Assembly (NCBI GenBank): GCA_029834535.1
Contig: JAQMWT010000439.1
Span: 62,001-126,000, forward strand
DNA: 64,000 bases
Source: Chrysophaeum taylorii
Lineage: Eukaryota; Sar; Pelagophyceae; Pelagomonadales; Pelagomonadaceae
Reading direction: 5' to 3'
Positions 16,923 through 63,163 of the stretch are shown in pieces. Under the pieces are notes generated by a model. That model saw only the letters and a program-made list of their open reading frames with translations, was not told the origin of the DNA and did no database searches. A program made the position numbers and the translations under genes. The first letter of the stretch is position 1. The number at the start of each line of letters is the position of its first letter.

Positions 16923-17083
16923 CCTAGCGCATCGCTTCGTTTGAAAACTCCATCCTCACCGTTTGACGCATCGTGCGCCCAACGATGTTCAGCAGGAAAA
17001 CGCTAACCCCTACGTCCTATTGATCCAGAGCCCGTAGTTCTCCCTACTACTAACCCGCCGCCGCATATTGTATTTTGGCGTTG
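16923..17083. promoter_or_regulatory. Shared divergent promoter region
   Basis: This 161-bp spacer lies between the start codons of the ATAD5-like gene (minus) and the large secreted protein (plus). No specific element was recognised. Confidence 0.4.
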
Positions 17084-37173: not shown

Positions 37174-37283
37174 GAAGCGCAAATCATTCCGTCGTGAACC
37201 CTGGGGTTCTGTTTTCAATTGGGTGACGACGGACGGGCGATGAGGTGAATCCCGAGAGCAGAAAGAAACTCGCCGCCGCCGCG

Positions 37284-39651: not shown

Positions 39652-42600
39652 CTAGAACGAGTCCGACGACATGTCAGTAAAGAATCCGGCAACGTGCTTG
39701 GACTTGAACTTGACGATGTACTCAGGATACGCGAGGTGGTCTTGGGCAGCGACGAGAATGCGGGAGTGCCCGACGTCGTCAATACTGGCATCGTCGGCAT
39801 CGTCGTCTCGTTCACATTCCAGATCGACCGCGCGGCACACAAAGACGAACTGCTCCTGGCGAGCGTTGGGCTTCGCGTATTTCGCGCCGCACGAATAACG
39901 CGAATTGGTTGCGAAATAGACCCCGCGACCGTGCTGGACATTCGGGCTGCAAAAGTCGCGATTAAAGCCTCGTTCGATGATGAAATCTGTGCTCTTCTCG
40001 TCGGTCCCATGAAATACCGGCCGCTTTTGGCACGACCCGTTCAGACACAAGATGGGCTCGTCGTCGGACGCCTTCTGCGCGTTGATCAGCTGGATCACGT
40101 AGGAGCGCCAGAGGCTGAGATTTTGAATTCTCTTGACTGAGAGTACGTCGTAATCCTCGGTGTCAAAGTGCCCGACAATCTCCTGGCGCTCCTTGACTCC
40201 GTTCGGCGGCACCAGGTGGTGCTCGGCGTCCGACGTCGCATCGGCCAACGTGAGAGGAACGACCATGACATCATCTTTTGTCCAACTGCGAGGAGGCGTG
40301 TGAGGTTAAACAAGATGTGTGCTCACTGGTCGGGGCGCATGAGGAGCCGGGCTTCGCAGTCGGGCATTTCGGCGCGCTTGACGCAGGCCATGGGAAACCA
40401 GCCGGTTCCGTCGTCGCCGTCGAGCCTCGTGCCGTAGCCCCACTCGTCGTCTTGGTTTAGAAGAATGACGCGCATGTTCACAGAAAGCCAGAGGAGCTTC
40501 TTGCCGCGGATTGCCTCCGGAACGTCGCGGCTCGACTTTTTTTCTTCAATTTTCTGCAGCGTCGTGAGCGTCGTGATAAACGGCCACACTCGGCGCTCGC
40601 ATCCCTTTTGGCCCTTGTGCTGGTCGCGAAGATTAGTCTGCGTTGTTCGGGGTTACCTCCGCCACCAAACTACTACTTTGGCGGATATACCTGCGTCATC
40701 GTCTTGAGGTCAATCGCCCAGTGGGCGAATTCGTCGTCCTCGTCGGTAGTCTCGTGATCGGAGGTGAAGTAAACGACCGAGGCACTCCCGCGTGGGTCGG
40801 CCAGGTAGTCGCGGTACGCCGCGTTCAAAGGATCCTGCGCCTTGGCCTTGTATTTGATCCAGCCTCCAGGGTGCTGCACGGAGTCAGCCCACAAGTGGAG
40901 ACGCTGAAAGTCTTCCTTCCTGAGCGCGCCGAAAAAAAATAAGATATATAAATACACGCCCGGAATCCAGGTATACAACAACAACAAGAACAAGAACAAG
41001 CACACGAAGACGAGACGCACCAATACCATTCGCAGGCGACGTCGCGGGCGCTTTCGAAGACCCGAACTTTTCGCGTCTTCTTCGTCAACACGTTTACCTG
41101 CTCCATCTTTGCGACGTCGACGACGAGATGCCGACGTTCGTTGTTTGGCGCAACGGCGTCGAACGCGTAGCGGTAAGACACCGGCTCGCCGCGGTCGACG
41201 AGTGCTGCGAGCTTCTCGACATGAGTGGATCCTTTGAATTCCTGCTGAAGGTCCGCCGGAAACAGCAAGGTGTCGCCCTCGCCGCTTTCCCTTTCGGTGA
41301 GGAGATCGCGTATCTCGTCCGGCACGAGTTTGTAGCGGTGTAGGAGCTCGGACAGGTGATCTTGCACGCTCTCTTCGAAGGCCACCCAACGCTCTTCGAT
41401 GACTCGCGAAGTCCAGGGAATCGACTCGCTTGGCTCCATCTCCCAACACCAGAGCTCGCGCTGAAACGCAACTTTGGGCGGCTCGGTAATACTGCCGGTG
41501 GTCATCAAACCGGACGCCGCGTTCGAGTCGGGAGTAAACGACGCGTCAATCTCCATCATCATCGACTTGGATGTCCCGGCATCACCACCATCACCCGAAG
41601 ACCCCCAGGGTTCCAAAGAGGAAACTGCGGCTTCTGGCGGGCCATCGTTTTTGAAGATGTCGGCAGCCTGTTGGACGTCCGCTTCGGTGAAGGCGCGCTC
41701 GACCACATAAACGTTCGCAGCTTCGCGGAGTTTTTGATCGACGCGCTTCTCCTGGCGCTTCCGAAACACGAAAAGAACCACGACAACCACGATCACGACG
41801 GTGACGCCGACGGCGACGACGACCGCTATCAAAAGGATCGCGGTGTCGTTGCCGCTGGATTTTTTGTTGTCGCTTTCGCCGGCGGGAATAATCGCGGGGC
41901 GATCGCTTGGAACGGTGGTCGTCCCCCCGGGAAAGAGAACTTTGCTATTGTCTATGGAGAGCTCTTCGCTGAAGGCCTCGAAGGAACCGACCGTGACAAA
42001 CTCGGCAGACGAGTCGCTGACGATGACGGTGCTGTGAGACAGCTTCCTAGCCTCTCCGTCGACGATCTGGAGGTTTTGGAGGTCGAGGAGGCCGACGCGG
42101 TCGCCAGAGTCCTCCGAGAGGAAGATTGGACCAGAGGCACTGTCTATGGGATAGTCCAGGTCCTTGATCGCTTGGTATATCGCGGCAGCATCGGTCGTGG
42201 TACCGCCGAGGGCATCTAGCGCCATGGCTAGCACGAGAACCGCGTCGGCCCAGAAAACACCGTGGGAAGAGGAGGTGAACGGATTACCGTCCGAGTCGCA
42301 GTAACGCTGAATGCCTCGGCGAACGAAGGTTCCCGAGGCAGGCACTAACGATCGGTTCCAGCACGCTTCGTTGTCGGCGACTCGACTCCAGTATTCAAAG
42401 TAGGCAGTCGTTTCGTTGCGTTGGTCGTCGTAGCGCGGCGAGTGCTCGATGAAGCCAAGCGAGCCTTCGTGCAAGTCGAGCGCATTCAAGTTGATCGTGC
42501 CGTCGTTTGCTCCAATTGACTCCAGAGATGGCCACGTCGTGAGCCACGCAAATCCAGAACCCAATTTCACGTTGCGAATCGCGCACGACTCGTAGATGGC

Positions 42601-45242
42601 GCGCTGCGCGCGCGGTTCGGACGCGATGACCACTACGTAGGCGTCCTCGAGGCTTGCGAGATCGTCGACAACCGCGTCGATGTCGAGGGTTCCGGCGTCA
42701 AAATCGGCGAGAGAAAACGGCACGCCGATCGGAGTGGTGCCGTTGTTCGCGTAGGCGAGGCGTTCGCACGCGCCGCCCTCGACGCAGACGCCCGAGCCGC
42801 GGATCTCGGCGCCCGTCGTCTCCCAGGCCGCCGCGAAGGCCTCGGCGAAGGCCTCGGCCGAGCTCACGGCACCAACCGAATCGTCATACACGAGGGCGAC
42901 GCGAGACCAGCCGTAATGGAGAGTCAGCTCGGACAAGGCCCCGCCAATTACGGTATCTGGGGTCGAGAGGCGCGCGACGTACGGGTACGCGATCTCGTCC
43001 GAGAGCTCTCTCGACGTGGACGCCGGGCCCAGAACCTGCGCGTTGTATGACATCAACAGTTTTATAAAATAATCCGGCACTGCCCAATACGACGTACGGA
43101 GGCGCGCCCGGAACGTCGGCGGCGTATCTCGCGCGCGCGGCGTTCGAGGCGATGGCAACAAGTTCCGTCGAGCACCACGCAAATACGGCGGTAAAGGTGT
43201 TTGGGAAGATCGACGTGGCAAGGTCTTTGAGAACATCGTAGCCCTCGTCATCTGACGCGCACGTGACGAAGGCGCTGTGCGCGACCAGACGGGTGTTTGG
43301 CAGGAGGTCGTCATAATATCCGTCGGCCGCGTTCATCAAGTCGATTTTTGAGAGAGCGTGGTCGCAATCCTCGCGACGGTCGATCGACGAGGAGGCTTCG
43401 TCGCAGAGTACGGCAATATGAATAAGATTGATATTTGGCGTCTGTTCGATGCGTCGAGCGACGTCGCCGTTCGTGCCGAAGATATTGTACTCCACTTCGG
43501 GATCCAGTACCGTCGACGGGCTTCGGTGGTGATTCACAAAGTACCTTTGAAGTGCCGCGTAGTGCGATACGCCGTAAAACTTGATTTTTTGCGGGTCGTC
43601 GTCGAGAATGTCGTCCGAGACCACGCTGCTCGACGCGACGACGGCGTACGTCGCGTCGTCGCGCATCATCTCTTCGTGGATGTAAACCACGTCCCCTAAC
43701 GTCCGAACCCCGTCCAAGTACGCCCACGTGAACCGGAGCGAGCTCGAGACTTGCAGGAAATCTCTACCGCCAATGTGCTCAACTGACCGCTCCAATAATT
43801 TTCGAAGCTCCGCCCCCGACACGTATAACCTGCACAACTCGTCGGCGGTATCTGGTGCGACGGCGAGGGCCTTGGCGCGCGTCACGCGAAACGCCTCGAG
43901 GGAAGCCTTCAGCGTGCGCGAGGCGTCAACGAGCGCGACATCTGCGTCGTCACCATACCACCGCGCCGCGTCCGCGACCAAATTCCCGATCGCACATTCG
44001 GCAACCGCACACCCGCACGCCGAACGACCGTCTAAATCGACGCAACCTTCGCCCTCGTACTCGAGCGCCGCGTCCAGCGTCGTCGAAATCCACCCAATCT
44101 CGGTCTCCTCGAGCCCAGTTTCCACCTGTTCCTCGAAATCGTCGAGAAGCTCGCGCATTGCGACATTTTCGGGCACTTCGCAGTCGAGGTCGACGCGCCG
44201 TAACGAAGCGCTCTCCCGAGCCAACGTGATGTGCGTTGTGGAAACACCGCCAGGCTCGAACGCCATCGCGGCGACGTGCACGAGCTGGCCCGCCACGTTC
44301 CGCATCGACTGTAGAGTGCTATTCAACTTTGAGACGATTTCGCCGTCTACGAGCACCAAGTCCACGGTCACGTATTTCGTTACGATCGCCACGATCGCCG
44401 CGACCTACTCGAGTGAGTCAATCGGGTGCCGCACGGAAAATTATCATGACGCTGGCAGCAACGGACCTCCACGTTGTCGGGCGAGGCTTCCTCTTTTTCA
44501 GCTACGGTGAGCAGCGCGTCGGCGTCGTCTTCGGGAACTCCCGTAACGAGGAGCACGACCCTGTCGACCTCGAGGACGCTGAGCGCGGTCGAGATAGAAT
44601 TCATGTAAGGCAAGCAGCGCGCCCCATAGTACGACGAGGCTTGCGCCACGTCGCGACAATCAAGCAACGACAGCACCGCAACCGAAACGCCCTGCTCGTA
44701 AACAATCGCGTACGTCGACACCAGCCCCTCTAGGTACGGGTCGCCCGAGACGTCGAGGTTAGTCGCGACGGTGACGACGCCCGACGCGTTCAGTTGCGCC
44801 GCGAGAATTTTTCCCCCCGTCGGCTCGTCGTCGCTCACCCCCGCCAAAAAGTCGTAGGCCCCGAGACCACGCGCAGAGTACCCACAATGGTGCATGAAGT
44901 GTGCGGACGCGAGTCCTCGAAACTCGTCGTAGAAGAGCCCCCCCGAGCCAAAGAAATGCGAGGAAAAGTCTATCGCCAAACTCTTTTCGTTCTGGATCAT
45001 GTCCGCGCGTCGAGCCGCACCGCCGTAGCAGCTGCACGGCGTCTCCGCGTACTGTTCGGACGTGCAAGCCGTGCCGTTCCTGGTCACCGGATAAACGGCG
45101 CCGCGCACCTGCGTGTCGTTCGAAGTGAACCTCCGTCGTGAGAACGAACAACAGACACGTGTCCTACCTGCGACGTGATGGTCATGTTGAGCTGCTGGGC
45201 ACATGCGGCAGCTACGACGACGGCCAGAGCGCACCATCCCAT
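39652..45242 (-). CDS. Receptor ADP-ribosyltransferase, copy 1 (pseudo-5'-nucleotidase, ANF-receptor, TM, WWE x2, SH3, PARP)
   Basis: Seven exons: 45242-45168, 45108-44467, 44404-43094, 43035-41021, 40919-40691, 40637-40327 and 40285-39652 (introns 59, 62, 58, 101, 53, 41 nt). Sum 5217 nt, 1738 residues. Residues 1-17 are a signal peptide (MGWCALAVVVAAACAQ). About 26-520 resemble CD73/UshA 5'-nucleotidases (CYGGAARRADMI, SAHFMHHCGYSARGLGAYDF, CAIGNLVADAARW, FLQVSSSLRFTW) but lack the metal motifs. About 560-1040 are a type-I periplasmic-binding/ANF-receptor domain (HIAVLCDEASSS, VLGPASTSRELSDEI, WSRVALVYDD). TM lies at about 1070-1100. WWE domains lie at about 1200-1330 and 1345-1425 (HLVVDVAKMEQVN, HWAIDLKTMTQTN), SH3-like near 1470-1520 (DDEWGYGTRLDGDDGTGWFP), and PARP at the end (FHGT, GRGVYFATNSRYS, AYPEYIVKF). 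Confidence 0.85.
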
Positions 45243-46410
45243 CGCGCTTTTTCCCTAATAAACCTGGGAAGTCGTAGAGACGAGAACGCAAGACAGAACA
45301 AGTTCTTCAAGAATTGACTTGGAACTGTCCAGTCGATGCCATCTGTGGCAACTTCAAGAAGATTGCAGCCCCATACCATGCTTACCCTATCGGCGGTTAA
45401 TCAGCTAGTTGTTTTAAAAACCGGCGTTCTTCTGAAAGGGCGTTCTTGCGTCCGGCCCTTTGGCCCAACGACTTATTACCAACCGCCGAGTCCGTGCGCC
45501 GAGTCTGTGCGCGATCCGCGAGTACGTGCGCCGACGCTTGTCGAGCGAGTGGAGCCTAGGCTTCGCGACGGAACTCTGTCGGACCGAAACCCAGCAGCAG
45601 CTTGGGCCCCCACCGCAATTCGAGGCCGTCGGCTTCAAACTATGAGCCTTACGTTCTTGCGACAGGTCAATGGGCCTCGCTCCCTGGGGCTACCAAGATT
45701 TCTGACTTGGATCCCCACCTGCCCTTGGAGCCGCGCTCGATAAGTTTCCTGCATTACTTGCCCTCTCAGCCGGGGGGGGTCGCTCTAGCCGGCTCCCGCC
45801 AAGTGCTGGTTGGATAGTATGTACCAATCGCCATACACACACACACACCGCTCGCCGACCCGAACTAAAACCACGCACGCGCAAAAGTCAATTTCATCCA
45901 CTTCCCGAAACTCCCAAACTCGAAACCCGAACCGCCCAATCTCAACTTTCAAGCTAGACACCTTGGAACTCCCGAATTTCCCGCACTAGGCTCCCAAACT
46001 CCCCCAAGTCGTATTTCAAAACAACCAAATCACGAACGCAACTTCCACAACCAAACACGATTTGCGGACCGGACATCCCGTCCGACTTGCAACTATACTA
46101 CACCTGACCACCGACATGGTCTTCCAAATCCCCCTAGCCAGACTTCCGAATTATTTAGACACCATTTAAATTCGACTCTCCAAATCGAACACCCATACCA
46201 GGCAGGCCCTCGTATCTCCACGTCACCGATGTCAGAAAAAAACAGTGTGAGCGTGTGTGTGCTAAGTTAGAAAGTCACTCTGATATCGGGATTCTCGCAG
46301 AATGACCGACTCAGTGGGGGCACACTTAATAATAATTGGGAGTATGAAGGCGCCGATTTCGTCGGTGAGCGTGCCTGGCAGATTTCACGAGGAACTCGTC
46401 TCAACTTCGA
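45243..46410. other. Spacer between receptor copies 1 and 2
   Basis: 1.17 kb between the start of copy 1 and the stop of copy 2. It has A/C-rich low-complexity sequence near 45840-46100, an AC run at 45835-45848 and a GT run near 46249. No gene or RNA was recognised. It must hold the copy 1 promoter and the 3' end of copy 2. Confidence 0.55.
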
Positions 46411-49400
46411 CTAGAAGGGCGTGGACACGTCGGGAAAATAGCTGTATAAGTGCTTGAGCTGAAACTTGACTAAGTATTCGGGATACGCGAGGTGGTCTTC
46501 ATCAGCGACCACGATGCTGGAGCCACCGACATTATCGTCACCGTGGTTATCGCTGAGTTCCATATGAACCGCACGACACACAAAGACGAATTGCTCTTGA
46601 CGAGAATTTGGTTTGGCATAGCGTGCACCGCACGAATACCGAGAGTCGGTCGCGAAATAGACGCCGCGTCCGTGCTGGACATTCGGGCTGCAGAAGTCGC
46701 GATTGAAGCCTCGTTTGATAATGAGATCAGTGTTTTTTTCATCAGTTCCATGGAACACTGGCCGCTTTTCGCACACCCCGTTAAGCGAGACAGGCTCGCC
46801 GGCAGCGTTCTGCGCGTTCATGAGCTGGATGACGTAGGAGCGCCAAAGCTTTATATTTTGAATTCGCTTGACGGATAGCACGTCGTACTCCTTTGTGTCG
46901 AAGTGCCTGACTATCTCCTGGCGTTCCTTTGCTCCGTTCGACGTCACGAGGCGGCGCTCGTGTTCCAAAGTCACATCGGCTGAGGTGAGCGGAACAAGTA
47001 ATTCGTCGTCCTCAGTCCAACTGCGAGGCAAGTTATGACAATGTAGTTGTTTGTTACTTACCCGACGGGACGCTTGAGGAGCTTGCTTTCGCAGGCCGGC
47101 ATCTCAGCACGCTTCACGCAGGCCATTGGAAACCAGCCTGACCCATCGTCACCATCGAGTCTCGTGCCGTAGCCCCAGTCATCGTCTTGGTTCAAGACGA
47201 GGACTCGCGTATTCAGGGTGAGCCAGAGGAGCTCTTTTCCGCGGATTGCCTCCGGGACCTCGCAGCATACCCTTCCATCGTCGTTCTCAAGCATCGTCAG
47301 CGTCCTCATGAAGGGCCACACCCGCCGCTCGAATCCGGGTTGGTCCTTGTGCTGGTCGCAGAGATTCGTCTGCGCGTGAGTTTACGACGAAAGCGCCACC
47401 AACTAAGAATACCTGCATCATCGTCTTGAAATCAACTAACCAGTGTGCACATTCATCATCCTCGTCCGTAATCTCGTGATCGGCTGTGAAGTAAAGCACC
47501 GAAACGCTACCGCTCGGGTCGTCCAGGTAGTCACGGTACGCCGCGGTCAATGGCTCCTGTGCCCTGGCTTTGAACTTGATCCAGCCTCTGGGGCGCTGCA
47601 TGGAATTAGTCAACGAATGGTGGCGCACAAGGTTCTCGTTCCTGAGTTCGTTCCGACATCAAACTCAGAGTACATTATTATTCGCACGCACCAGTACCAT
47701 TCGCATACGGCGTTTCGAGCGCCTTCAAACGCTCGAAGCTTTCGCCTCTTCTTCGTCGACACATTAACTAGCTCCATCTTGGCAACGTTGATGACAATGC
47801 GCTGGCTTTCGCTGTTGATGTTTGGGAACAGGGCGAGGGAGTCAAACGCGAAGGAGTAAGACGTCGGCTCGCCGCCACAGTCCACGGGTGTTTGGGGTTT
47901 ATTATCCACAGACGAACCTTGGGGATCGTAAAGTTCAGTCGGATACAATAGTGTGTCGCTTTCGCCGCTATCCCTGTCGCCGAAGATATCCCGCATCTCA
48001 TCCGGTAGCAGCTTGTATCGGTGGAGGAGTTCGGACAGGTGATCTTGTACACTTTCCTCGAAGGATACCCAGCGCTCTTCGATGACTTGCGAAGTCTCGG
48101 GAATCGTCTCGCTGGGGTCTATTTCCCAACACCAGAGTTCGCGCCGAAGCGCAATATTCTGCAGCGTGTTTGTCCATGTGGTGCCGGCACTCGAGGCGGC
48201 AGTAACCTCTATGTACATCGAATTCGAATTCAATGTATCCGCATCATCTAGAGGCCCCCAGGGGAATGCTTCTGACGGGCCAACATCTTCGTAAAATTCG
48301 GCAACCTGCTGGACGTCTTCCTCAGTGAAGGCGTGCTCAACCACGTAAATATTCGCAGCCTCCCTCAGCATTTTATCGACGCGCTGCTCCTCGCGCTTCC
48401 GAAGTACGAGAAACCATACGAACATGATCACAACCACAACACCGACGACGATGATGACCACGACGAGGATCGTTGCGTTACTGCCTCTGCCTTTTTTATC
48501 GTTGCTGAGGGAAACCGCAACACGGTCGCGCGGGGCCGAAAGACTCCCCCCAGGAAAAACAATGGCGTCACTATCGACGGAGAGCACTTCACTAGCGGCC
48601 TCGAAGGAACCGACCGTGACGAATTTGGCAGACGAGCCACTGACGATGATGGTGCTCTGAGACAGCTTCCTATCCTCTCCATCCACGATTTGAAGGTTTT
48701 TGAGGTCGAGGACCCCGACTCGGTCGCCCGAGCCTTCGGAGAGGAAGATTGGACCAGAAGCACTGCTTATGGGATAGTCCAGGGCCTTGATCGCCTGGTA
48801 AATTGCCGCGGCATCGGTCGTTGTGCCACCGAGGACGTCCAATGCCGTTGCTAGTACGAGAACGGCGTCAGCCCAAATAAGACCATAGGCAGTGGCCGTA
48901 AAGCGATCGCCGTCTGCGTCACAGTAGCGCTGACTACCTCGACGAACAAACGTTCCCGAGGCGGGCACTAACGACCGATTCCAGCACGCGTCGTTGTCGG
49001 CGACAAGACTCCAGTAGTTTAAGTAAGAGGTTGTGGCGTTGCGCTCACCGTAAACAGGCGAGTGCTCGATGAAGCCCAGCGCGCCTTCGTGCAAGTTGAG
49101 TGCATCCAAGTTCACAGTGCCTCCGTGTTCTTCGATTGACTCCAAAGATGGCCACGTCGTGAGCCACGCAAAGCCAGCACCAAATTTGACGTCATGAGTC
49201 GCGCACGCCGCGTAAATGGCGCGCTGCGCATGCGGCATCGATGCAACGACGACAATAAAGACGTCATCGAGGCTGGAGATGTCTTTGACGACCGACTCTA
49301 TATTAAGAATTCCGGCGTCAAAATCTGCGAGTGAAAAAGGTACGCCGATCGGCGTGATGCCGTTCTTGGCGTGGGCGAACCGTTCGCACGCACCGCCGTC

Positions 49401-51961
49401 AACGCACTCTCCCGTGCCGCGGATTTCTGCCCCGGTTTTTGTTTCCCAGGTTGACACAAAGGCGTCAGCGAAGGCTTCGGCGGAGCTCACGGACCAGATC
49501 GTGTCGTCATAGACGAGGGCGACCCGAGACCAGTCGTAGGTGAGGGTGAGCTCGGACAAGGCCGCGCCGATTACGGTATCTGGGGTCGAGAAGCGGGCAA
49601 CATAAGGAAACGCTATCTCGTCCGACAGCAGTGTCGACGTGGACGCTGGGCCTAGAACCTGCGTGTTGGACACTGTCAATCGAGGTCAGCGTCGTGAAGC
49701 AGCGTTACGAAGTATTCCTTGATTAGACACTGCTCGAGACGACGTACGGAGGCGCGCCGGGAAAGTCGAAAGCGTAGCGCGCACGCGCGTCGTTCGAGGC
49801 GATGGCAACAAGTTCCGTCGAACACCACGCAAATACTGCGGTCAAGGTGCTCGGGAATATCGACGCGGCGAGCTCTTTGAGGGTATCGTAGCCCTTGCCG
49901 TCCGTGGCACACGTGACGAAGGCGCTGTGCGCGACCAGCCGTGTGTTTGGTAGGAGCTCGTCGTGATATCCGTCGTGCGGCGCGTTGATCAAGTCGATTG
50001 TGGAGAGTGTGTGGTCGCAACTCTCGCGGCGTTCGATCGACGAGGACGCTTCGTCGCAGAGCACGGCAATGTGAATCAGAGTGATGCTTGGTGTTTGTTC
50101 GATGCGTCGCGAGACGTTTCCGTTCTTGCCGAATATGTTGTACGCCACTTCGGGATTAAGCTCTGTCGGTAGGCTGTTGTGGTGCGCGAGAAGGTATCGA
50201 GAAAGTGCCTCGTAGTGCGACACGCCGTACAACATGACTTTCTGCGTGTCGTCGTCGTCGTCGAGAATGTCATCCCAAACAACGCTGTTCGACGCGACAA
50301 CAGCATACGTGGCGTCGTCGCTCATCATCTCTTCATGGATGTAAACCGCGTCGCCCAAGACAGGAACCCCATCCAGGTCCGCCCACGTGAGCCGAAGAGA
50401 GCTCGAGACTTGCAAGAATCCTTTACCGCCATTGCTCTCAATTGACTTCTCCAACAATTTCCGAATTTTCGCCCCTGACACGTATAACCGGCACAACTCG
50501 TCGGCGGTATCTGGTGCGACGGCGAGGGCCTTGGCGCGGGTCACGCGAAACGCCTCGAGGGACGCCTTCAGAGTGCGCGAGGCGTCAACGAGCGCTACAT
50601 CTGCGTCGTCACCATACCACCGCACCGCGTCTGCGACCAAATTCCCGATCGCACATTCGGCAACCGCACACCCACACACCGAACGACCGTTTAAATCGAC
50701 GCAGCCCTCGCCCTCGTACTCGAGCGCCGCGTCCAGCGTCATCGGAATCCACCCAATCTCGGTCTCCTCGAGCCCAGTTTCCACCTGTTCCTCGAACACG
50801 TCGAGAAGCTCGCGCATTGCGACATTTTCGGGCACTTCGCAGTCGAGGTCGATGCGCCGTAACGACGCGCTCTCCCGAGCCAACGTGATGTGCGTCGTAG
50901 AAACACCACCCGGCTCGAACGCCATCGCGGCTACGTGCACGAGTTGGCCTGCCACGTTCCGCATCGACTGCAGAGTGCGATTCAACTTTGAAACAATTTC
51001 GCCGTCTACGAGCACCAAGTCGATGGTCACATATTTCGTTACAATCGCCATGATCGCCGCGACCTGCGCGGACGTAATCAAGCTCATGAAATCGTCGACA
51101 CGAGCGAGCGAGTGAGTGATTTGGGTGCCGAAGTAAAAAATATTATGACACTGGCAGCAACGGACCTCCACGTAGTCAGGCGAGGCTTCCTCTTTTTCAG
51201 CTACGGTGAGCAGCGCGTCGGCGTCGTCTTCGGGAACTCCCGTAACGAGGAGCACGACCCTGTCGACAACCGCGAGGACGCTGAGAGCGGACGAGATAGA
51301 ATCCATGTAAGGCAAGCAGCGCGCCCCATAGTACGACGAGGCTTGCGCCACGTCGCGACAATCAAGCAACGACAGCACCGCAACCGAAACGCCCTGCTCG
51401 TAAACAATCGCGTACGTCGACACCAGCCCCTCTAGGTAGGGGTCGCCCGAGACGTCGAGGTTAGTCGCGACGGTGACGACGCCCGACGCGCTCAGTTGCG
51501 CCGCGAGAATTTTTCCCCCCGTCGGCTCGTCGTCGCTCACCCCCGCCAAAAAGTCGTAGGCCCCGAGACCACGCGCAGAGTACCCACAATGGTGCATGAA
51601 GTGTGCGGACGCGAGTCCTCGAAACTCGTCGTAGAAGAGCCCCCCCGAGCCAAAGAAATGCGAGGAAAAGTCTATCGCCAAACTCTTTTCGTTCTGGATC
51701 ATGTCCGCGCGTCGAGCCGCACCGCCGTAGCAGCTGCACGGCGTCTCCGCGTACTGTTCGGACGTGCAAGCCGTGCCGTTCCTGGTCACCGGATAAACGG
51801 CGCCGCGCACCTGTATGAGAGAACGAACGAATCAACACTCCTAAACGCGTGCGCCACAACTCTCCTACCTGGGAGGTGATGGTCATATTGAGCCAGGTGT
51901 TGAACTGCAGGGCCCGTCCGGCGGCCACGACGCCCGCCACCCGTGCAATCCACAACATCAT
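46411..51961 (-). CDS. Receptor ADP-ribosyltransferase, copy 2
   Basis: Seven exons: 51961-51869, 51810-51166, 51063-49744, 49658-47692, 47641-47413, 47369-47062 and 47020-46411 (introns 58, 102, 85, 50, 43, 41 nt). Sum 5172 nt, 1723 residues, one uninterrupted frame, with intron positions matching copy 1. The signal peptide differs (MMLWIARVAGVVAAGRALQF). Exon 2 is nearly identical in DNA to copy 1, while the cytoplasmic exons are clearly diverged. The transmembrane helix is ILVVVIIVVGVVVVIMFVWF. WWE 2 begins WYWNENLVRHHSLTNSM, less like a WWE at its start than the other copies. The SH3-like part reads DDDWGYGTRLDGDDGSGWFP. PARP motifs are VFHGTDEKNTDLIIKRGF, GRGVYFATDSRYS and YPEYLVKF. Use copy 1 for the domain order. 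Confidence 0.85.
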
Positions 51962-53316
51962 CTCTGATATTTGCAGAATCTCTTTCCTGCCGCTTCCAAA
52001 TCGTGGCAATTCACCTATTCGGCTGCAACTGGTCTGCAGGTCTGTCGAGATGAGATTGATCACGTGTTTTCGAGTACGACGAGGAAGGAGTCGCGCCGAT
52101 TTGGTTGTTGAACGAAGAAAACGAGGCATTGATGGGGCGCACCACGCTACCTCGTGATCGCGAGAGAGGGCGGCGTATACGCCAACTGCGCCGCGCCGGT
52201 CGCTACCTGGCTCCTCTCGGAGGACCCGCGTCGCCTCGCTCAACGACGCGCTTCGCCATATACTTCAGTCAGCGGGCCTACGCGGCTCCCAGTTGTCGTC
52301 GAGGCTGGGAACGCCGCCATCGACGACCGCCGGTTCCGCTGTGCCAGCAGCGACACGCGATCCCGTTGAACGTCGTGCTTCGCGCCTCTAACGCTGCGGC
52401 CTCCCGGCACCTGAGAGTCCCACGGGCTTCGACTCCGAACTCCGCTTCGACTGTCCACCTGTCCTCGTGACCAGCGACCAGCGACGACACAGAAAGCACC
52501 GCCCGTCTTCTCACGCGGCGCTCGAGGCTGTCGCCTCGTGCCATCTCAAAGACGCGCCTCTCGTCCGTGCGATTCTCGCGGCGAATCGTCTCACGGCGAA
52601 TCGTCTCAGTACCTTGCTGCCCAAACCCCTTGATAGAACCAACGTCGCTGCCACCCTTCGCGACCTCATCTCGCTTCGCACGTCGCATTTCGGCGGTGCA
52701 GTATGCCCAACTTAGGTACGCGGACGAAGCTACGCACCGCAAGAACCCCGCGCAAGTCGGCTTCACGCTCTGCTTCAAGTCCAGCCTGCTCCAGGCGAAT
52801 GCGAAATGCGAACAACCGCCCGCCACTGGAACGACGACGACGCTAGCGCTAGGTGGGCGCCGCAGCAGGTAGCTCCCTCCACTACGGTGTCGTCGCGTGT
52901 CCCAGGTCGGAAGTTGTCGCACGCCTCTCTCCACATCCACGCACCGTTCTGCCCCCCACGCATCTCGATAATCAGCTGGCGGCGGCGGGAAGGACACCGC
53001 GTTGTGTGACATCGAGGCACTCTCTTACAAGAGCTTACGGACAAACGAAACCTCCCGACTTGGTAGTATGAGAAGGATCTACGCTGCTCAAAGAAAGACC
53101 CATGTGGCTAGCAGAAAAGTCAACAACGGCGAATGTTATTTTTCGGACACTCGTTTTTTTGGTGGTACCGCTCTTACCCCAAAATTTAATTGGTACCCCC
53201 CCCACAAAAAACATAGACGCTTTTTTTTTTTTCCCACATTATTTCGTTACCCCCAGAGTACCGGAATGAATGAATACCGATTTTCCATTGGAAAAAGCTC
53301 TGGAGAAAAGGGGAAT
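51962..53316. other. Region upstream of copy 2 with unassigned open stretches
   Basis: Open stretches on the plus strand look partly protein-like: EYDEEGVAPIWLLNEENEAL near 52072-52135, EGGVYANCAAPVATWLLSED near 52165-52230, and RPSSHAALEAVASCHLKDAP with PLDRTNVAATLRDLISLRTS near 52400-52715. They lie in different frames and could be exons of an unrecognised gene or remains of one. I could not join them. The last 300 bp are AT-rich and hold a T-run and the promoter of the next gene. Confidence 0.35.
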
Positions 53317-54369
53317 ATGGCCTCGATAGAGACCTTTGTCGCGTTCGCGTTGAACGGGTTGTGCGTGTGCGTCGACACCCTGCCGGATACGCACTTCCTG
53401 CAACTGCCTTTTAAGGCAATCACGTTCGACCTTGCGACGACGCCGCCGTCGTTGCCGGCGTGGGTCGCGTCGTGGATCCCGAGCGTGGTGACCATCGAGG
53501 AGCTGAGCGTACTGAACGTGTGTATCGCCGCCCTTCAGTGCTGCGCGGTGGTGTTCAACGTGTTGGGAGCTCTTGGGCTGCCCGCGGTAATCTCTGAGTA
53601 TCGACGGTTACGAGTCATCGAGTCGCGCGTGGCGCTCCAGTCGCGGTCGCGCGTCGCCGAGGTCGGGGCGTCGCTCGCCGTGCGACAAGCCTTCTCGAGC
53701 TTGGTGTTTGCGCTGGTCCGGCTGCTCCTCGGGCCGACGTACGGTATCCTCGCGCTCTACAAGCTAGGGATCGCGTCGCAGCGACTTCTCGAGTGGGGTC
53801 TGCTGTTGATGCAGTTAGCGCTGGCGTTCGCGCTCTACGCCATGTGGAAAGAGCTTGGGCGGCGTCGACAGAAAGCGGCCAACGCGATCATCGTCGCCAC
53901 CAATCCAACGACCGACAACCCCGCAGCCCTCACGACGCTCGACGACCTGCCTCATCCCAATTCGGACGGTCTCCTCGCTATCGTCTCCAAAGCCGACCAA
54001 GCTGAAAAGGTCCGCGAGCGGTGCGACGCGTGGGTGAAGATCGTCCGCAAAAAAGCGAGCGAAAGCCAGGCCGAGCTCCGGACCCTTGCGCTGCGCGAAC
54101 GCGAGGGTATCCGATTGGACGCGTGCGTCTTCTGGCTCAACTTCGTCGCCTTCTTCGGATACCTCGTGTTCCCTGCCACATACTTCGGCCCCTTCGTCCG
54201 CGACCCCCACATGGAGTGGTTCGGCAACTTCGCTGGCGATCTTGCCTGGACAGTACGTCGCCAGCTCACCCGTCTCTCTTGATGCCTTGCCTTCCTTCCG
54301 CAGCTTGAACCAGCTCTCGTCATTGCGATGACTTTCTGCCAGCGCTCGACAAAGACAAAAGTGGATTGA
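53317..54369 (+). CDS. Multipass membrane protein of unknown function
   Basis: Two exons, 53317-54252 and 54304-54369, with a 51-nt intron (GTACGT...CGCAG), 333 residues. ATG 53317 gives MASIETFVAFALNGLCVCVD. Hydrophobic segments lie near residues 70-95 (LNVCIAALQCCAVVFNVLGA), 130-150 (SLVFALVRLLLGPTYGILAL), 160-180 (LLLMQLALAFALYAMW), 270-290 (ACVFWLNFVAFFGYLVFPAT) and at the end (GDLAWTLEPALVIAMTF). A cytosolic-type helical stretch (KADQAEKVRERCDAWVKIVR) separates the fourth and third. No family was recognised. It lies on the opposite strand between two receptor copies. Confidence 0.65.
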
Positions 54370-55726: not shown

Positions 55727-56160
55727 TCATTTTCTCTTCGAACAAGCCCGCGCTTTTATGTCGCCGCAAAACTCGCATATCATGAGGCCGCTCGCCTCAC
55801 ACGCGGTGAAACCCTCGGGCAGGTCCTTGCAGACAGGTCCTCGCAGCGCAGCCACCGCCGCGTCGAGCAAAGGCCTCCGTCAGCGCAGCGTACGCCGTGC
55901 CCTTCTCCGCCCGCTTCTGATTCCGGCGCTCCGCGCGCTGTAGTTTCTCTTGTTTACACAGTGGCCCGAGCAGTCTCTTGTTCTCTGCGCGCCTCGAGGA
56001 CGCCCGACAGCTCGACCGAACCGGTGCCGTCGGTGATGCGGATGCGAGAGAGGTCCTTCTTCCGCGACGCCGATGGCGCCTTCGAGATGCCGGCCTCCTT
56101 GGGACTGACCTCGCGCTCGAGGTGTTTTTTGGTATCGAGTGGTTTTTGGTATTGGGTTGC
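55727..56160 (-). pseudogene. Degenerate or mini-intron gene with a Cys-rich end
   Basis: Read on the minus strand, three protein-like blocks follow each other in different frames: KKDLSRIRITDGTGSVELSG with VLEARREQETARAT, then RAERRNQKRAEKGTA, then LLDAAVAALRGPVCKDLPEG and CEASGLMICEFCGDIKARAC, ending at a stop at 55729-55727. They could be joined only through GT-AG introns of 22 and 19 nt, far shorter than any other in the window, so either the gene is decayed or it has unusual mini-introns. The C-x(8)-C-x2-C arrangement suggests a zinc-binding end. It is a host gene of unknown identity; no start was found. Confidence 0.35.
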
Positions 56161-56403
56161 CTGTACTTAGGCTGGAGGGTGACTCCGCTCAACGCGTGTT
56201 GTGGAAACAATAATACTACCTAACTAAACGCCACATTCTTGAAGCCTAAACACAGAAAAGAAACTATAGGATACTAACCATAGGACAGCCCAGCGCATGG
56301 GACGAAGTAATCCCAACGCCGAAGCGCGTGGGATCAGAATTGCAGGCGTTCAGACGAGGGGCGCAGAAAGGAGTGTCCGTGGTTGAGTGATCATCGGATC
56401 TGT

Positions 56404-56530
56404 TGTTATGCGGAGACCTCGTTAACTTCCTTCTGCGTCCCCCGGCGGCCATACCCCATCCCAATGCGAACGTTCCGGCTTCCAACCGGCCTACCCGGGA
56501 GGCGAACAGGTGCCAACCTCCGCCGGGAGG
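56404..56530 (-). repeat. Dispersed repeat, copy B
   Basis: The reverse complement matches 23984-24108. The match runs from the GGTTGGCACCTGTTCGCC end through GCAGAAGGAAG and fades beyond. No terminal inverted repeats or target-site duplication are obvious. Confidence 0.65.
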
Positions 56531-57662
56531 TCCGATGCCCTCGCAAGGTGCAGGTTCACAAGGCATAGTCCTCCATCGCAACCACGCGTTCAGCGATGAG
56601 GGTTTGTGGAAACAGAAGGGAAGAACAAACCAAGTTACCAACAGGGAGAGACGGATCAAGTCCGCAAAGTGCTGGATAGAGCCAGCAAGGTGGGTCCAGC
56701 AGCACTCAAACCACGGCAGACCCGAACTCAAATGCCATGAATTATGTGCGCTCGCCCATATTCAGCGAGCGTTAACACACTTATTATTATGGTGTGGCCT
56801 GTGGCTGTGTAACCGAAATCAAGAGTCTCCGATAGAGTTGCTCAGAGTATTCTCCAACGAGAAACTACAATCCGAGCGCGCCGACCGTCTCCTTTTGACG
56901 GAGAGGCGTTACTTTGAGGGCGACGCCAGTACCCACGTTCACATCGAGTCGACCACCTAGATATAACTTGCGAGCGAGCACAACTTCCGAACAACAACGG
57001 GTGATAGCCTCCTCAAATTAAAGGGATGGGCAACACGTCCTCGTGCGCCTCCAAACGCACCCACGAGGCCCCACAATCCACTTACGGCCAGGGACTCAAC
57101 AAGGCACTCCGCAAACTCCACATGCCAACGAAGTTCTTGTACACCCTCGCTTAAGACAATGACAAATGGCGACAGGCCATCCCTAAACGCTCCTTTCTGC
57201 ACGTCCACTATGATGATTGTCTGTGATTCTGTTCTCGTGCGCTACGATGCGGGGCTTAACCGACGCCCAATGCACTGGGCAGACTTCCAGTAAGTTACTT
57301 AGGTAGGACCATCCTACTCATCTGGCTCGACTTCATTCCCGAAAAAGCCGTCTACCGCCACTAGGGCTTCTCCCGTCAACCGCATGCGCTCTTGCTGACA
57401 AAGCACTCCCCAACGTCGAAGAGACACCATCTTTCGGGCTCTAGTTCCCAGCATCTCTCTTATCATTTTGTCGCATTGTTCGTATAAGATAAAAGTTTAT
57501 TGTGTTACAAAAGAACCACACTAAAACTTGCAGAAAACCATCTTCAAGCACGTTCTCACAATCGCACCAAAATAAATGGGGTGAGGATACCTGACTGGCA
57601 GTGTCTGATAGCGGCGGGTAGTGGCGAGGAGGTAAAGCGGTCGTGGTCTTTATAGCTCAGGC

Positions 57663-60600
57663 TCACGCAAAGTAGGTGGACATGTGCTTGGCTTGGAATT
57701 TGACGATGTACTCGGGGTATGCTAGGTGGTCTTCCGCAGCGACGAGAATGCCGGCGCTCGCGTCATCATCGTCTTCTTCGTCATATTCATCTTCGTCGTC
57801 GCGCTTGTTATCTTTCTGTTTCTGATCAACCACACGGCACACAAACACGAACTGCTCCTGGCGAGTGTTGGGTTTGGCATAACGCGCGCTACACGAGTAC
57901 CGCGAGTTGATCGCGAAATAAACCCCGCGGCCGTGTTGGACGTCTGGGCTGCAAAAGTCGCGATTGAAGCCTCGTCTGATGATGAGATCGGTACTTTTTT
58001 CGTCGGTTCCGTGGAACACTGGCCGCTTTTCGCACAGCGCGTTGAGCGTGACAGGCCCGTTGACGGCTTTCTGCGCATTGATGAGTTGAATCATGTAGGA
58101 GCGCCAAAGAATAATGTTTTGAATTCGCTTGATTGACAGCACGTCGTAGTCCGAAGCGTCGAAAAGCTTAGCGATCGACTGGCGCTCCTTGACTCCGTGT
58201 GACGGGACGATGCGGCGCTCAATCTCCAAAGAAACATCGACGGAGGTGAGAGGAACGAGCAAATGGTCCTCTTCGGTCCAACTGCGAGGCATGTAAAAGA
58301 CGAGAGGATGGGTTTTCTTACTGGGCGGGCCGCGCGAGGAGTTTTGCTTCGTTATCGGGCATATCAGCACGCTTCACGCAGTCCATGGGAAACCAGCCGG
58401 TCCCGTCGTCACCATCGAGCCTCGAGCCGTAGCCCCAGTCATCTTCTTGGTTAAGGACGAGGATGCGCGCGTTGACGTTAAGCCAGAGAAGTTTCTTGCC
58501 ACGGATAGCCTTAGGGACCTCGTAGCAAGGCTTTTCGTCTGATTTCTGCTGCAACGTCGTGATGAAGGGCCAGACACGGCGCTCGCATGCTTTCTGGCAC
58601 TTGTGCTGGTCGCGAAGATTCGTCTGTGCGAGGCGAGCTTCGCGGTGCGCACACAATGACCAAAACAATTTAAAATTACCTGCATCATCGTCTTGAGATC
58701 GATAACCCAGTGCGCGTATTCGTCGTCCTCATCCGTCATCTCGTGATCTGCCGTGAAGTAAATCATCGATTCACTTCCACGCGGGTTGGCCAGGTAGTCG
58801 CGGTACGCCACGGTCAGAGGCTCCTGGGCCTTGGCCTTGTACTTGATCCAGCCTCCAGGACGCTGCACGGAGTCAGCCCACGAGTGGAGGCGCCGAAAAT
58901 CTTCTTTCCTGTCACACCGAAGGTCATTGTTCAACTCGAAGCACGCAACTAATATCGCACGCACCAGTACCATTCGCACGCGACGTCGCGGGCGCCTTCG
59001 AACACCCGAACCTTGCGCGTCTTCTTCGTCAACATGTTGACCTGCTCCATCTTGGCGACGTCGACGATCAAGTGTCGGCGCTCGCTGTCAGGCGCGAAGG
59101 TGTCGAAAGCGTAGCGGTAAGACACCGGCTCGCCGCGGTCGACAGGTGTTTGAAGTTTATCGACCGACGTCCCTTTGAACTCCTCGACGTCGGTCGGAAA
59201 CAACAAGGTGTCACCTTCACCACTTTCTCTTTCGCTGAGGAGTTCGCGTATCTCGTCGGGCAGCTGCTTGTAGCGGTGTAGGAGCTCGGATAAGTGATCT
59301 TGCACTCCGTCTTCGAACTCTACCCAGCGCCCTTCGATTACTCGCGAAGCCTCGCGCATCGACTCGCTCGGCTCTATCTCCCAACACCAGAGCTCGCGCT
59401 GAAACGCAACTTTTGGCTCCGCGTCGTTGCTAGCCATCGCCGTGGCATCAACCTCTAAGAGCATCGAGTTGGACGACCCTATTTCATCCAACGGGACGGC
59501 TTTCGATGGGCCAAGGTAGAACTCGGCAACCTGCTGGACGTCTGCCTCGGAGAAAGCACGCTCAACCACGTAAACATTCGAGGCTTCCCTCAGCATTTTG
59601 TCGACTCGGCGCTCCTCGCGCCTCCGCAGCACAACAAGAATCAGGAAAACAATGATCACAACGGTGACACTAATGACGACGACCACCGTGACCAAGACTG
59701 TGTTGCTGCTGCTGCTAGATTTAGTCCCGTCTTCCAGAACAACTTCGTCACGGTCGCGCGGAGTCACGGTTGCCCCCCCAGAAAAGTAAACTAAGTCACC
59801 GTCAATGGCGAGCTCTTGCTCGAAGGACTCATAAGAACCGACCGTCACGAACTCCGCAGACGAATCACTGATGATGACGGTTCTGTCGACTTTGTTGTTG
59901 TGTGCCAGTTTTCTCCCACCTCCGTCGACAATTTGGAGGTTGTCGAGATCAAGAAGACCGATCCGGTCTCCCGTGCTTTCAGAGAGGAAGACCGGACCAG
60001 ATGCGCTCTCTATGGGGTAGTCAAGGCCCTTGATCGCTTCGTATATCAATGATGCATCGGTCGTGGCGTCGTCGAGGGCGTCCAGCGCCTGTGCTAGGAC
60101 GAGAACAGAGTCGGCCCAAAAGACGCCATGAGATGAGGACGTGAAAGCATCGTTGTCGGCGTCACAGTAACGCTCATTCCCGCTGCGAACAAATGTTCCA
60201 GAGGCAGGTACAAGCGATCGATTAAAACAGGCTTCGTTGTCGGCAACGAGGCTCCAATAGTCAAAGTAGTCGGTTGTTTCATTGCGCTCTGCGTAGAGAG
60301 GCGAGTGTTCGATGAAGCCCAGAGCGCCTTCGTGCAATTCGAGAGCATTCAAGTTCACCGTGCCGTCGATATCACCGATTGACTCCAAGGAGGGCCACGT
60401 CGTAAGCCACGAGTAGCCGGTGCCGAGTTTCACGCCGCGCGTCGCGCACGCCACGTAGATGGCGCGCTGCGCGCGCGGTTCCGACGCGACGACGACAATG
60501 TACGTGTCGTCGAGGGCCGCGAGATCGTCAATTACCGAGTCGATGCTCAGGGTCCCGGTATCAAAATCAATGAGAGAAAACGGTATACCGATTGGCGTGG

Positions 60601-63163
60601 TGCCGTTGTTGATGGAGGCGACACGTTCGCAATCGCCGCCCGCGACGCAAGTGCCCGAGCCACGTATCTCCGCGGTAACAGTCGCCGACTCCCAGGTCGC
60701 AACGAAGGATTCGGCGAAGGCCTCGGCGGAACTCGTGGCGGCGACCGAATCGTCGTAGACGAGGGCAACGCGAGACCAGTCGTAATAGCGAGTGACCTCG
60801 GACAACGCGCCGCCAATCACGGTGTCGGGGGTCGAGAAGCGCGCGACGTAAGGATACTCGGTCTCACTCGAGAGTTCCGTCGACGTGGACGCCGGCCCCA
60901 GAACCTACGTTGGAAGAAGAAGAAGTTATTGCGGCAATATCTTAATCGGTCGAGGAGTTGGACGCCGCCCGATACGACGAAGGGAGGAGCGCCAGGAACG
61001 TCGGCAGCGTAGCGCGCCCGCGCGGCAGTCGAGGCGATGCTGACTAGTTCCGTCGAACACCACGCGAAAACGGCAGTAAGCGTGGTTGGGTAAATCGACT
61101 TCGCGAGTTCTACGAGGGCATCGTACCCGTCGTCGTCTTCCGACGCGCACGTGACGAAGGCGCTGTGCGCGACCAGCCGGGCGTGGGGTAGGAGCTCGTC
61201 GTGATATCCATCCAGAGGAGCGTTGATCAAGTCGATCGTCGAGAGTGCGTGGTCGCAGTCCTCGCGGCGATCGACCGAGGAAGAGGCGGCGTCGCAGAGC
61301 ACGGCAACATGGAACAGATTGATGTTCGGAGTCTGTTCGATCCGCCGCGGGACGTTTTCGTTCGTGCCGAAAACGTTGTACTCCGAGTCGGGATTGAGCT
61401 CTGTCGATTGGCTGTTATGGTGCGCAAGAAGGTAATGCGCGAGTGCCTCGTAGTGCGACACGCCGTAAAACGAAACTGCGCGATCTTGGTCGTCGAAAAT
61501 AAATAATGATAAGCTCCTCGACGCGACCACGCTGTATGTGGCGTCGTCGCTCATGATCTCTTCGTTTATGTACACAGTGTCGCCCATGACACGCACGCCG
61601 TTCAAGTATGCCCAAGTGAGCCTAAGCGAGCTCGAGACTTGTAAAAACCCTTTCCCGCCGAGGTTCTCGATCGAAAGCTCCAAAATTTCTCGAAGCCGTG
61701 CGCCCGAAACAGTAAATCGAAGTAGCTCGTCCGCGGTATCAGGGGTCGCGGCGAGAGCCTCCGCGCGGGTCACTGCGGACGCCTCAACGGAAGCTTTTAT
61801 GGTTTGCGAGGCGTCGACGAGCGCGACGTCCGCGTCGTCCCCGTACCACCGCGTCGCATCGGCAACCAAATTTCCGAGGGCGCACTCGGCAACAGCACAC
61901 CCACACACGAAACGGCCTTGTATCTCGGCGCACCCTTCGTCCTCGTATTCGAGCGACGCATTGAGCCTTTTTGAAATCCAGCCGAGCTCGGTCTCCTCGA
62001 GTCCAGTTTCGACTTGCTCCTCGAATGTATCGAGACGCTCGCGCATCTCGTGGTCTTCGGGCGCCTCGCAGTCGAGGTCGATACGCTGTACCGAGGCGCT
62101 ATTCGGAACTAGCGTGACGCGCGTCGCGGAAACACCGCCAAGCTCGGGCGACATCGCGACGACGTGCACGATCTCGCCGGCAACATTACTCACCGACTGT
62201 AGCGTGCTATTGAATTTAGACACTATTTCGCCGTCTGCGATTAGCACGTCGATGGTCAGTACTTTCGTTGAAATCGACATTATCGCCGCGACCTGTGCGA
62301 CCATCATCATCATCATCATCATTGGAAACAACAGACCTCCAACGAATCGGATGCGGTCGCCTCCTCTTTTGCTGACACGGTGAGAATATCGTCAGCATCG
62401 TCTTCGGAAACTCCCGTCACGAGGAGCACGATCTTGTCGACAGCGAGCGATCTGAGCGCGTTGTCGAGCGACTCGACGTAAGGCTTGCAGCGCGCCCCAT
62501 AGTACGGCGAGACTTGGATCACGTCGCGACAATCGAGCAACGACAGCACCGCAACCGAGAAACCCTGAACTTGGACAACCGCATACGGCGAAACCAACCG
62601 CTCAAGATAGGGGTCGCCCGAGACGTCGAGGTTTGTCGCGACGGTGACGACGCCTGACGCGTTTAGCTGAATCGCGAGTTGTTGTCCGCCCGTTGGCTCG
62701 TCGTCGCTGACGCCCGCCAGAAAGTCGTAAGCCCCGAGCCCGCGCGCAGAGTACCCACTATGGTGCATTAAATCCGCGGACGCGAGCCCGTGAAACTCGT
62801 CGTAGAAAAGCCCGCCCCCACCAAAGAAGTGCGAGCCAAAGTCTATCGTTAATCCATCCGCGTTCTGGATCAAGTGCCCGCGCCGAGACGCGCCGCCGTA
62901 ACAGCTGCAAGGGGTCTCGGCGTATTGCTTTGAAGTACAGGCCGTGCTGTTGCGGGTCACGGGATAAACGGCGCCGCGCACCTGTGGCGAGTGAGTCAGG
63001 CAGGAGCACTCGTGAGTCAGGCAGGAGCACTCGAAGACACACAAAGATGCCACCTAATTCTCCTTCCTCCTACCTGAGAGGTGATGGTCACGTTCATCAG
63101 CTCCTGGGTCCGCGCGGTCGTGACCAGGACGGCGGCCAACGCAGCCCATCCCATCGTGCCCAT
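57663..63163 (-). CDS. Receptor ADP-ribosyltransferase, copy 3
   Basis: Seven exons: 63163-63074, 62981-62337, 62292-60979, 60904-58965, 58908-58680, 58623-58322 and 58281-57663 (introns 92, 44, 74, 56, 56, 40 nt). Sum 5139 nt, 1712 residues. A second in-frame ATG at 63154 fits copy 1 better (MGWAALAAVLVTTARTQELM). This is the most diverged copy in the ectodomain; exon 2 differs from copies 1 and 2 throughout. The ANF-receptor domain, transmembrane helix (VTVVVVISVTVVIIVFLILV) and both WWE domains are complete (WYWKEDFRRLHSWADSVQRP). PARP motifs are VFHGTDEKSTDLIIRRGF, GRGVYFAINSRYS and YPEYIVKF, preceded by an acidic insertion (DDEDEYDEEDDDDAS). Intron 1 holds a 20-bp tandem duplication, and intron 2 an ATG-repeat microsatellite (62303-62325). 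Confidence 0.85.

Follow-up and report, generated by a model that had tools for sequence, protein, structure and literature searches.

Candidate single-pass receptor ADP-ribosyltransferases with a PARP output in Chrysophaeum taylorii and other marine microbes

The stretch of DNA analyzed here (the window) comprises 64,000 nucleotides of contig JAQMWT010000439.1 from the pelagophyte Chrysophaeum taylorii and contains a trio of tandem genes on the minus strand between positions 39652 and 63163, referred to as g1, g2, and g3. The products of these genes are probably (at a rough probability of 0.68) single-pass plasma-membrane receptors of a wider and apparently undescribed class, the receptor ADP-ribosyltransferases with a PARP output. 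The predicted proteins have been shown to carry a clamshell domain of the ANF type behind a 5'-nucleotidase-like part, one strong transmembrane segment, and a WWE-SH3-PARP cassette of the PARP14/15 type. Kinases, phosphatases, and cyclases are known as the outputs of single-pass receptors, and we are aware of no such receptor with an ADP-ribosyltransferase output. One transmembrane segment between a sensor and an enzyme is the known plan; the ADP-ribosyltransferase output is the new part. Judging from the predicted domains, mono-ADP-ribosylation by an enzyme-linked receptor is the most likely output and catalysis within the class is likely, and we infer that ligand binding may alter ADP-ribosylation.

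The gene models were derived from stop-to-stop frames and exact splice sites (Table 1). The initial annotation had described three same-strand genes of seven exons and 1712–1738 residues, and this description has held, with lengths of 1739, 1724, and 1713 residues. In each gene the seven exons join into one open frame, and all 18 introns (six per gene) are GT-AG introns of 40–102 nt at positions that match across the three genes. The deposited model P0029 equals g2 exactly, plus 8 residues at intron 3 and minus 39 residues in the PARP part, and the deposited model P0028 equals g1 exactly, minus residues 1026–1133 (108 residues around the transmembrane segment). Outside these three local differences the deposited annotation uses the same exon joins for g1 and g2. 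No deposited counterpart of g3 was found among 7998 scored candidates, which were those sharing most words. According to the available part of the genome paper, the C. taylorii genes have been annotated using RNA-seq (reads SRR22085759) and homology, and words starting with PARP, receptor, or ADP-ribos are absent from its main text (PMC10366177).

The window models rest on genomic sequence and the deposited models differ from them locally, and it could be argued that neighboring ectodomain and PARP genes have been joined by eye. Such an artefact is extremely improbable and was rejected in view of eight paralogues that hold the layout in single frames, because of which the fusion of ectodomain and PARP is credible without splicing. 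The exon joins shared by the deposited g1 and g2 models, relatives in named genomes, and transcriptome-sourced open reading frames also speak against it. Among these relatives, P0109, P0122, and P0123 are MMETSP-sourced (transcriptome), the first two having ANF, WWE, and PARP in their database listings.

Matches to the PARP family PF00644 occur at 21 places in the C. taylorii genome (70.8 Mb). In the eight paralogues, three in tandem on C323 and one each on C125, C129, C242, C370, and C379, the PARP domain lies inside one uninterrupted frame of 1646–2010 aa that also carries PF01094 and PF02872 matches and a transmembrane-type segment (hydropathy 2.31–3.21); the frame on C379 is without its N-terminus. 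These eight and g1–g3 share 29–96% identity, and the C125 paralogue is CTAYLR_008075 (P0001). An additional member is located on C149 (P0004, 1920 aa as deposited). The proteins of C673 (L051 with L003) and C389 (L052 with L004) have tandem PBP_like_2 (phosphate-binding-like) ectodomains, WWE, PARP, and a transmembrane-type segment of 2.6 each, and are possible phosphate or oxyanion receptors. Another exon is likely in C389 because its PARP match ends at position 121 of 199. Overall, the genome contains at least 14 receptor PARPs, namely g1–g3, the eight single-frame paralogues, and the members on C149, C673, and C389.

Further loci with parts of this layout were observed in the genome. The receptor-PARP copy on C388 (L020) has an interrupted frame, with one TGA in the PARP match and pieces in several frames, and is either a pseudogene or intron-containing. 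A 1535-aa frame on C606 (14196–16757) with 5_nucleotid_C, ANF_receptor, and WWE but without a PARP match would be either a further member with the PARP domain in another exon or a member without PARP. On C675 (L044; 1072–3600, minus strand), 5_nucleotid_C and ANF_receptor precede a stretch that is Cys-rich by eye, with no PARP or WWE match in the frame, and this gene perhaps places the same ectodomain pair on another output. Other ANF-receptor proteins are encoded on C366, C34, and C529 (L021, L023, L024); by eye these differ from the PARP class in having Cys-rich stretches and more than one hydrophobic segment.

Full Pfam scans were made on five C. taylorii proteins, g3 and four paralogues (including C323a, C125, C370, and C379). 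The PARP, ANF-receptor, 5'-nucleotidase, and WWE families proposed in the initial annotation all matched g3 above cut-off and in the order claimed (Table 1; 5_nucleotid_C at E 5.1e-13), and its transmembrane segment and tandem arrangement were likewise borne out; the proposed SH3 domain remained under the Pfam cut-off, and the 5'-nucleotidase part proved to lack metal-binding motifs. No cyclase family was found in the same five proteins. A profile of the 5'-nucleotidase part (g3 and seven paralogues) matched 5'-nucleotidases, with 2z1a at E 3.6e-18. The metal-binding motifs of the 5'-nucleotidase N-terminal half are GD and GNH, and the corresponding stretches of 2z1a, LDAGDVFQGT and LGNHEFDLG, are replaced by LDlGgyffGs and LnarDFaaG, a change present in all 11 C. 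taylorii rows. An active 5'-nucleotidase ectoenzyme was rejected on the loss of these motifs, and the module looks like a dead enzyme. For the ANF domain, a profile of seven paralogues with g1–g3 excluded was nearest to GABA-B and mGlu receptors, and the ANP clearance receptor also matched. The predicted structure of g3 exon 4 led to the same GABA-B/mGlu ectodomains (E about 1e-12, target TM-score 0.27–0.58).

Each of g1–g3 has one strong transmembrane segment, with a 19-residue hydropathy mean of 3.49–3.63, and weaker segments occur in the ectodomains of g1 (2.17) and g2 (2.07). In g3 the flanks of 15 residues hold seven K/R inside vs. one outside. The WWE match of g3 scored 24.8 bits (cut-off 21.1), two WWE stretches were found in C323a, C125, and C370, and C379 stayed under the PF02825 cut-off at 18.4 bits. 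Against the Protein Data Bank (PDB), the WWE-region profile gave a single weak match, PARP11 (E 0.042). The Pfam SH3 matches were under cut-off in all five scanned proteins, the best being SH3_2 in C125 (6.3e-4, 19.8 vs. 21.8 bits); the SH3-stretch profile matched numerous PDB chains of SH3 domains, though only at E 0.004–1, and its top row was a lysozyme entry (2.6e-6).

The PARP profile, with g1–g3 included, matched human PARP15 at E 4.8e-39, and PARP15 and PARP14 were the nearest human proteins. In the structural model, the VIA-align rows are confined to the PARP part. Among the readable rows, the NAD+-binding residues are conserved throughout (H in 140/140, with 5 gaps; Y in 141/141, with 4 gaps), and both are kept in g1–g3. 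The third catalytic position, readable in 137 rows (8 gaps), is I in 116, L in 8, V in 6, M in 6, R in 1, and E in none. This predicted H-Y-I residue set is as in mono-ADP-ribosyltransferases. Neither the macrodomain PF01661 nor an RRM was found in g3, the four scanned paralogues, or 15 relatives on which Pfam was run with positions.

The initial annotation had suggested looking for the same layout in other stramenopiles, and relatives with varied ectodomains were indeed found in diatoms and Aureococcus. With the transmembrane-to-PARP half of P0011 as the query, scoring of the 8000 candidates that had the most words in common returned 224 proteins; PF00644 is present in all of the 120 matches listed. 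The matches listed, the hits of other searches, and g1–g3 together form a set of 133 rows, and 16 macro-PARP-type proteins (P0012–P0027, most of them metazoan-named, P0023 and P0024 without a name) served as controls. An SH3-like hidden Markov model (HMM) trained on 11 proteins found the domain in 129 of the 133 rows (118/122 outside the training set), the other four rows having E 0.0012–0.002, and in none of the 16 controls; an earlier regular expression had found only 65/130. In the Pfam runs, the cassette stands behind ANF in Seminavis, Cylindrotheca, and Nitzschia, behind CUB in Seminavis P0116 and Aureococcus P0064, behind NMT1 in Aureococcus P0096, and behind Cache in a protein (P0139) from the transcriptome of Tiarina, a ciliate, in which algal prey could be a contaminant. 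It also follows LRR in P0061 and P0142, the latter with a hormone-receptor match just under cut-off, and further ectodomains before the cassette include Bmp, PBP_like_2, and Peripla_BP_6 with EGF.

Automatic database names of the class include 'Poly [ADP-ribose] polymerase', 'receptor family ligand binding protein', and 'platelet-activating factor acetyltransferase'. The last is the NCBI name of Aureococcus P0064, P0070, P0076, P0096, and P0132, all listed with PF00644; of the two run through Pfam, P0064 has PARP and CUB, and P0096 has PARP, WWE, and NMT1. The Aureococcus PARP proteins contradict an earlier published statement, and diatom species other than the two searched there have them.

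The orientation with the N-terminus outside and PARP inside is well supported by the predicted sequences. A hydropathy segment of at least 1.7 is located 307–774 residues before the PARP motif in 124 of the 133 rows (P0028, whose transmembrane segment is missing, counts at this cut-off only via a weak segment). With a cut-off of 2.0 past residue 45, exactly one segment was found in 118/133 rows and none in 10; all 16 controls are without one. The mean number of K/R per 15 residues is 1.34 outside and 5.59 inside, and the inside value is higher in 113 of 124 rows, equal in 6, and lower in 5. In addition, 12 of 13 proteins inspected have a hydrophobic N-terminal stretch (best 10-residue mean of at least 1.69), as read from hydropathy rather than a signal-peptide program. 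The sequons of g1, g2, and g3 (8, 6, and 8 in the ectodomain vs. 2, 1, and 0 on the cytosolic side) also fit PARP inside.

A tree was built from 112 of the 146 PARP domains after removal of those to which no ectodomain had been assigned, with ectodomain labels taken from the domain lists of databases. A branch with SH-aLRT 99 splits the receptor class from the 16 controls. Ectodomain types require 22 changes on the tree (minimum 7, shuffled mean 61.6), a number that is rough because support is weak for 50 of the 108 inner branches. The ANF proteins P0009/P0010 cluster with the CUB/NMT1 proteins P0067/P0071 at a support of 100. On these predicted proteins the ectodomain is interchangeable on a constant transmembrane-WWE-SH3-PARP cassette, and the relatives, which keep the cassette and exchange the ectodomain, lend further weight to the proposal in the initial annotation that PARP is the output of a receptor. 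A constitutively active, membrane-tethered ADP-ribosyltransferase, whose ectodomain would function in nutrient capture, adhesion, or placement without controlling the enzyme, is improbable. In its favor, solute-binding folds (PBP_like_2, NMT1, Bmp, ANF) are common among the ectodomains, and in bacteria such folds feed transporters. Against it, no transporter family was found among the nine large frames of the window that were scanned, and known receptor enzymes show the same joining of one constant cassette to many sensor folds (here including Cache and LRR).

Among g1–g3, dN/dS is 0.11–0.35 across all modules, with some dS near 1 that make the values rough, and the genes therefore appear to be maintained. 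Because dS between g1 and g2 is 0.18 in the 5'-nucleotidase part vs. 0.60–1.02 elsewhere, gene conversion between the two is suggested. In the C323 copies (L009–L011), the closest pair differs between the ectodomain and cytosolic parts. Mosaic gene conversion is possible in both groups.

Several observations weigh against the receptor reading of g1–g3 and the class. A single search, with the cytosolic half of one protein as its query, supplied most of the 133 rows, so that the SH3 and transmembrane counts are not independent of the choice of query; the rows are mutually related, and P0028 and P0029 duplicate g1 and g2. Nine of the rows fail in the place searched (six without a transmembrane segment, three without the PARP motif), and five have two or more segments of at least 2.0. 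The deposited g1 model P0028 is without the transmembrane segment, an omission that could reflect either faulty prediction or a genuine splice form. P0001, the C125 paralogue, shows the opposite K/R bias, with four outside vs. two inside. Sequon density is 0.44 per 100 aa in the ectodomain vs. 0.71 on the cytosolic side and is higher in the ectodomain in only 25/104 rows, perhaps due to conserved NxS/T in the PARP domain. These whole-set sequon counts would fit an ecto-ADP-ribosyltransferase inserted in reverse, with PARP facing outside. WWE and SH3 are cytosolic modules, the sensor fold is N-terminal and preceded in nearly all proteins inspected by the hydrophobic stretch described above, and the reverse orientation, for which we see next to no chance, was rejected on the positive-inside bias.

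The PARP domains of g1–g3 require separate consideration. They are without the YDTTVD-like stretch that precedes the last strand and that the six other aligned C. taylorii PARP domains keep, with variants, and the inner branch that they share is the longest on the receptor side of the tree (1.78); for these two reasons they may be weak or inactive. The pattern for this stretch was missed in 18/141 rows, comprising g1–g3, P0028, P0029, and others that by eye are mostly YDCT variants or cut ends, and the status of g3 is based on the alignment, not on the pattern. The class could accordingly be catalytic while g1–g3 bind NAD+ or ADP-ribose and signal via partners. This version is unlikely, since g1–g3 retain the H, Y, and I residues and their PARP dN/dS (0.18–0.23) is no looser than that of the ectodomain (0.23–0.28). 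The class stands independently of the activity of g1–g3.

If g1–g3 and their relatives act as receptors with a PARP output, a small ligand would close the clamshell within a dimer, and a helix running from the membrane into the cytosol would carry the change inward. The PARP domain would then mono-ADP-ribosylate itself or membrane-near targets using cytosolic NAD+, with WWE reading ADP-ribose and thereby holding targets or feeding back, and with SH3 recruiting partners. Hydrolases of the ADP-ribosylglycohydrolase (ARH) and macrodomain types would reset the mark, and ectodomain exchange on the constant cassette would tune members to different extracellular cues. More broadly, it is somewhat better than an even bet that marine protists possess, in the receptor ADP-ribosyltransferases, a major and so far overlooked class of enzyme-linked receptors that matches receptor kinases in design. 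One cassette would there be joined repeatedly to varied sensors (amino-acid-like clamshells, phosphate-binding, Cache, NMT1/CUB, and LRR), and nutrients or chemical cues would be converted directly into protein ADP-ribosylation, which ARH and macrodomain proteins would erase. If so, NAD+-dependent ADP-ribosylation would join the direct outputs of cell-surface sensing, and the class would act in diatoms and pelagophytes, which shape ocean productivity; the phosphate-binding-like members point to a candidate type of ligand.

The C. taylorii genome has three ADP_ribosyl_GH loci (five matches) and three Macro matches. One candidate eraser lies in the window about 31 kb from the receptor cluster (Table 1), a co-location that is a lead only because the family was looked for after the fact. 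Other genes of the window include a sulfatase on the plus strand (37227–39233, PF00884 7.7e-40) that adjoins g1 in convergent orientation, a 2035-aa frame (17054–23158, plus strand) with filamin, PA14, GEX2-type Ig, and Calx-beta domains, and a 436-aa frame between g2 and g3 (52972–54279, plus strand) with hydrophobic stretches by eye and no Pfam match.

Table 1. Coordinates of the receptor-PARP genes, their predicted modules, and a candidate eraser in the window.
Feature	Position	Strand	Details
g1 (CTAYLR_007242)	39652..45242	-	exons 45242-45168, 45108-44467, 44404-43091, 43035-41021, 40919-40691, 40637-40327, 40285-39652; 1739 aa, no internal stop
g2 (CTAYLR_007243)	46411..51961	-	exons 51961-51869, 51810-51166, 51063-49741, 49658-47692, 47641-47413, 47369-47062, 47020-46411; 1724 aa
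g3	57663..63163	-	exons 63163-63074, 62981-62337, 62292-60976, 60904-58965, 58908-58680, 58623-58322, 58281-57663; 1713 aa
5'-nucleotidase-like ectodomain part	g3 61348..63106 (residues 20-560); g1 43457-45197; g2 50110-51910	-	PF02872 at 61522-61905 in g3
ANF-receptor / type-I periplasmic-binding domain	g3 59702..61347 (residues 561-1085); g1 41845-43456; g2 48477-50109	-	PF01094 E 6.9e-15 in g3
Transmembrane helix	g3 59636..59701; g1 41773-41844; g2 48411-48476	-	hydropathy 3.63 and a following RRREERR in g3
WWE region	g3 58552..59635; g1 40557-41772; g2 47289-48410	-	one Pfam WWE in g3 at 58603-58901, PF02825 E 2.8e-5
SH3-like domain	g3 58345..58551; g1 40350-40556; g2 47085-47288	-	SH3-stretch HMM, weak PDB SH3 matches
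PARP catalytic domain, H-Y-I residues	g3 57666..58344; g1 39655-40349; g2 46414-47084	-	PF00644 E 6.6e-10 in g3
ADP-ribosylglycohydrolase (candidate eraser)	7734..8903	-	PF03747 E 1.2e-30

The initial annotation knew of no described protein of this architecture, and a search of titles and abstract starts in the open-access literature, with most subscription journals and preprints outside its range, likewise found no paper on receptor-type PARPs. It described known PARPs as either intracellular or tail-anchored, which is almost correct, except that, in the available part of their paper, Perina et al. (2014, PMC4245714) have already mentioned a sponge protein with an N-terminal transmembrane segment before PARP and rhizarian clade-3 PARPs with transmembrane and H_lectin domains. 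These proteins and PARP16 have in common with the present class a PARP domain on a membrane, whereas the transmembrane segment of PARP16 is C-terminal and the sponge and rhizarian proteins are without a ligand-binding ectodomain described in that part of the source (Perina et al., 2014, PMC4245714). Plant RCD1/SRO proteins share the WWE-PARP order but have an RST domain, and transferase activity is thought to be absent there (PMC4245714). The nearest catalytic domain is that of human PARP14/PARP15, which are clade 3 mono-ADP-ribosyltransferases; in contrast to these, the scanned members of the class lack macrodomain and RRM, and the class falls on a separate side of the tree and has a transmembrane segment, an SH3-like domain, and an ectodomain of the ligand-binding type. 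CD73 and UshA-type 5'-nucleotidases match the N-terminal ectodomain region, whereas the class has lost the metal-binding motifs and places this region in a membrane protein with PARP. The GABA-B and mGlu receptors (class C GPCR) have the nearest solved ectodomains by both profile and model, but the class has one transmembrane segment and an enzyme, not seven transmembrane segments. The natriuretic-peptide receptor guanylyl cyclases likewise combine an ANF-type ectodomain, one transmembrane segment, and a cytosolic enzyme; their kinase-homology domain sits where the class has WWE and SH3, and their output is a cyclase instead of PARP.

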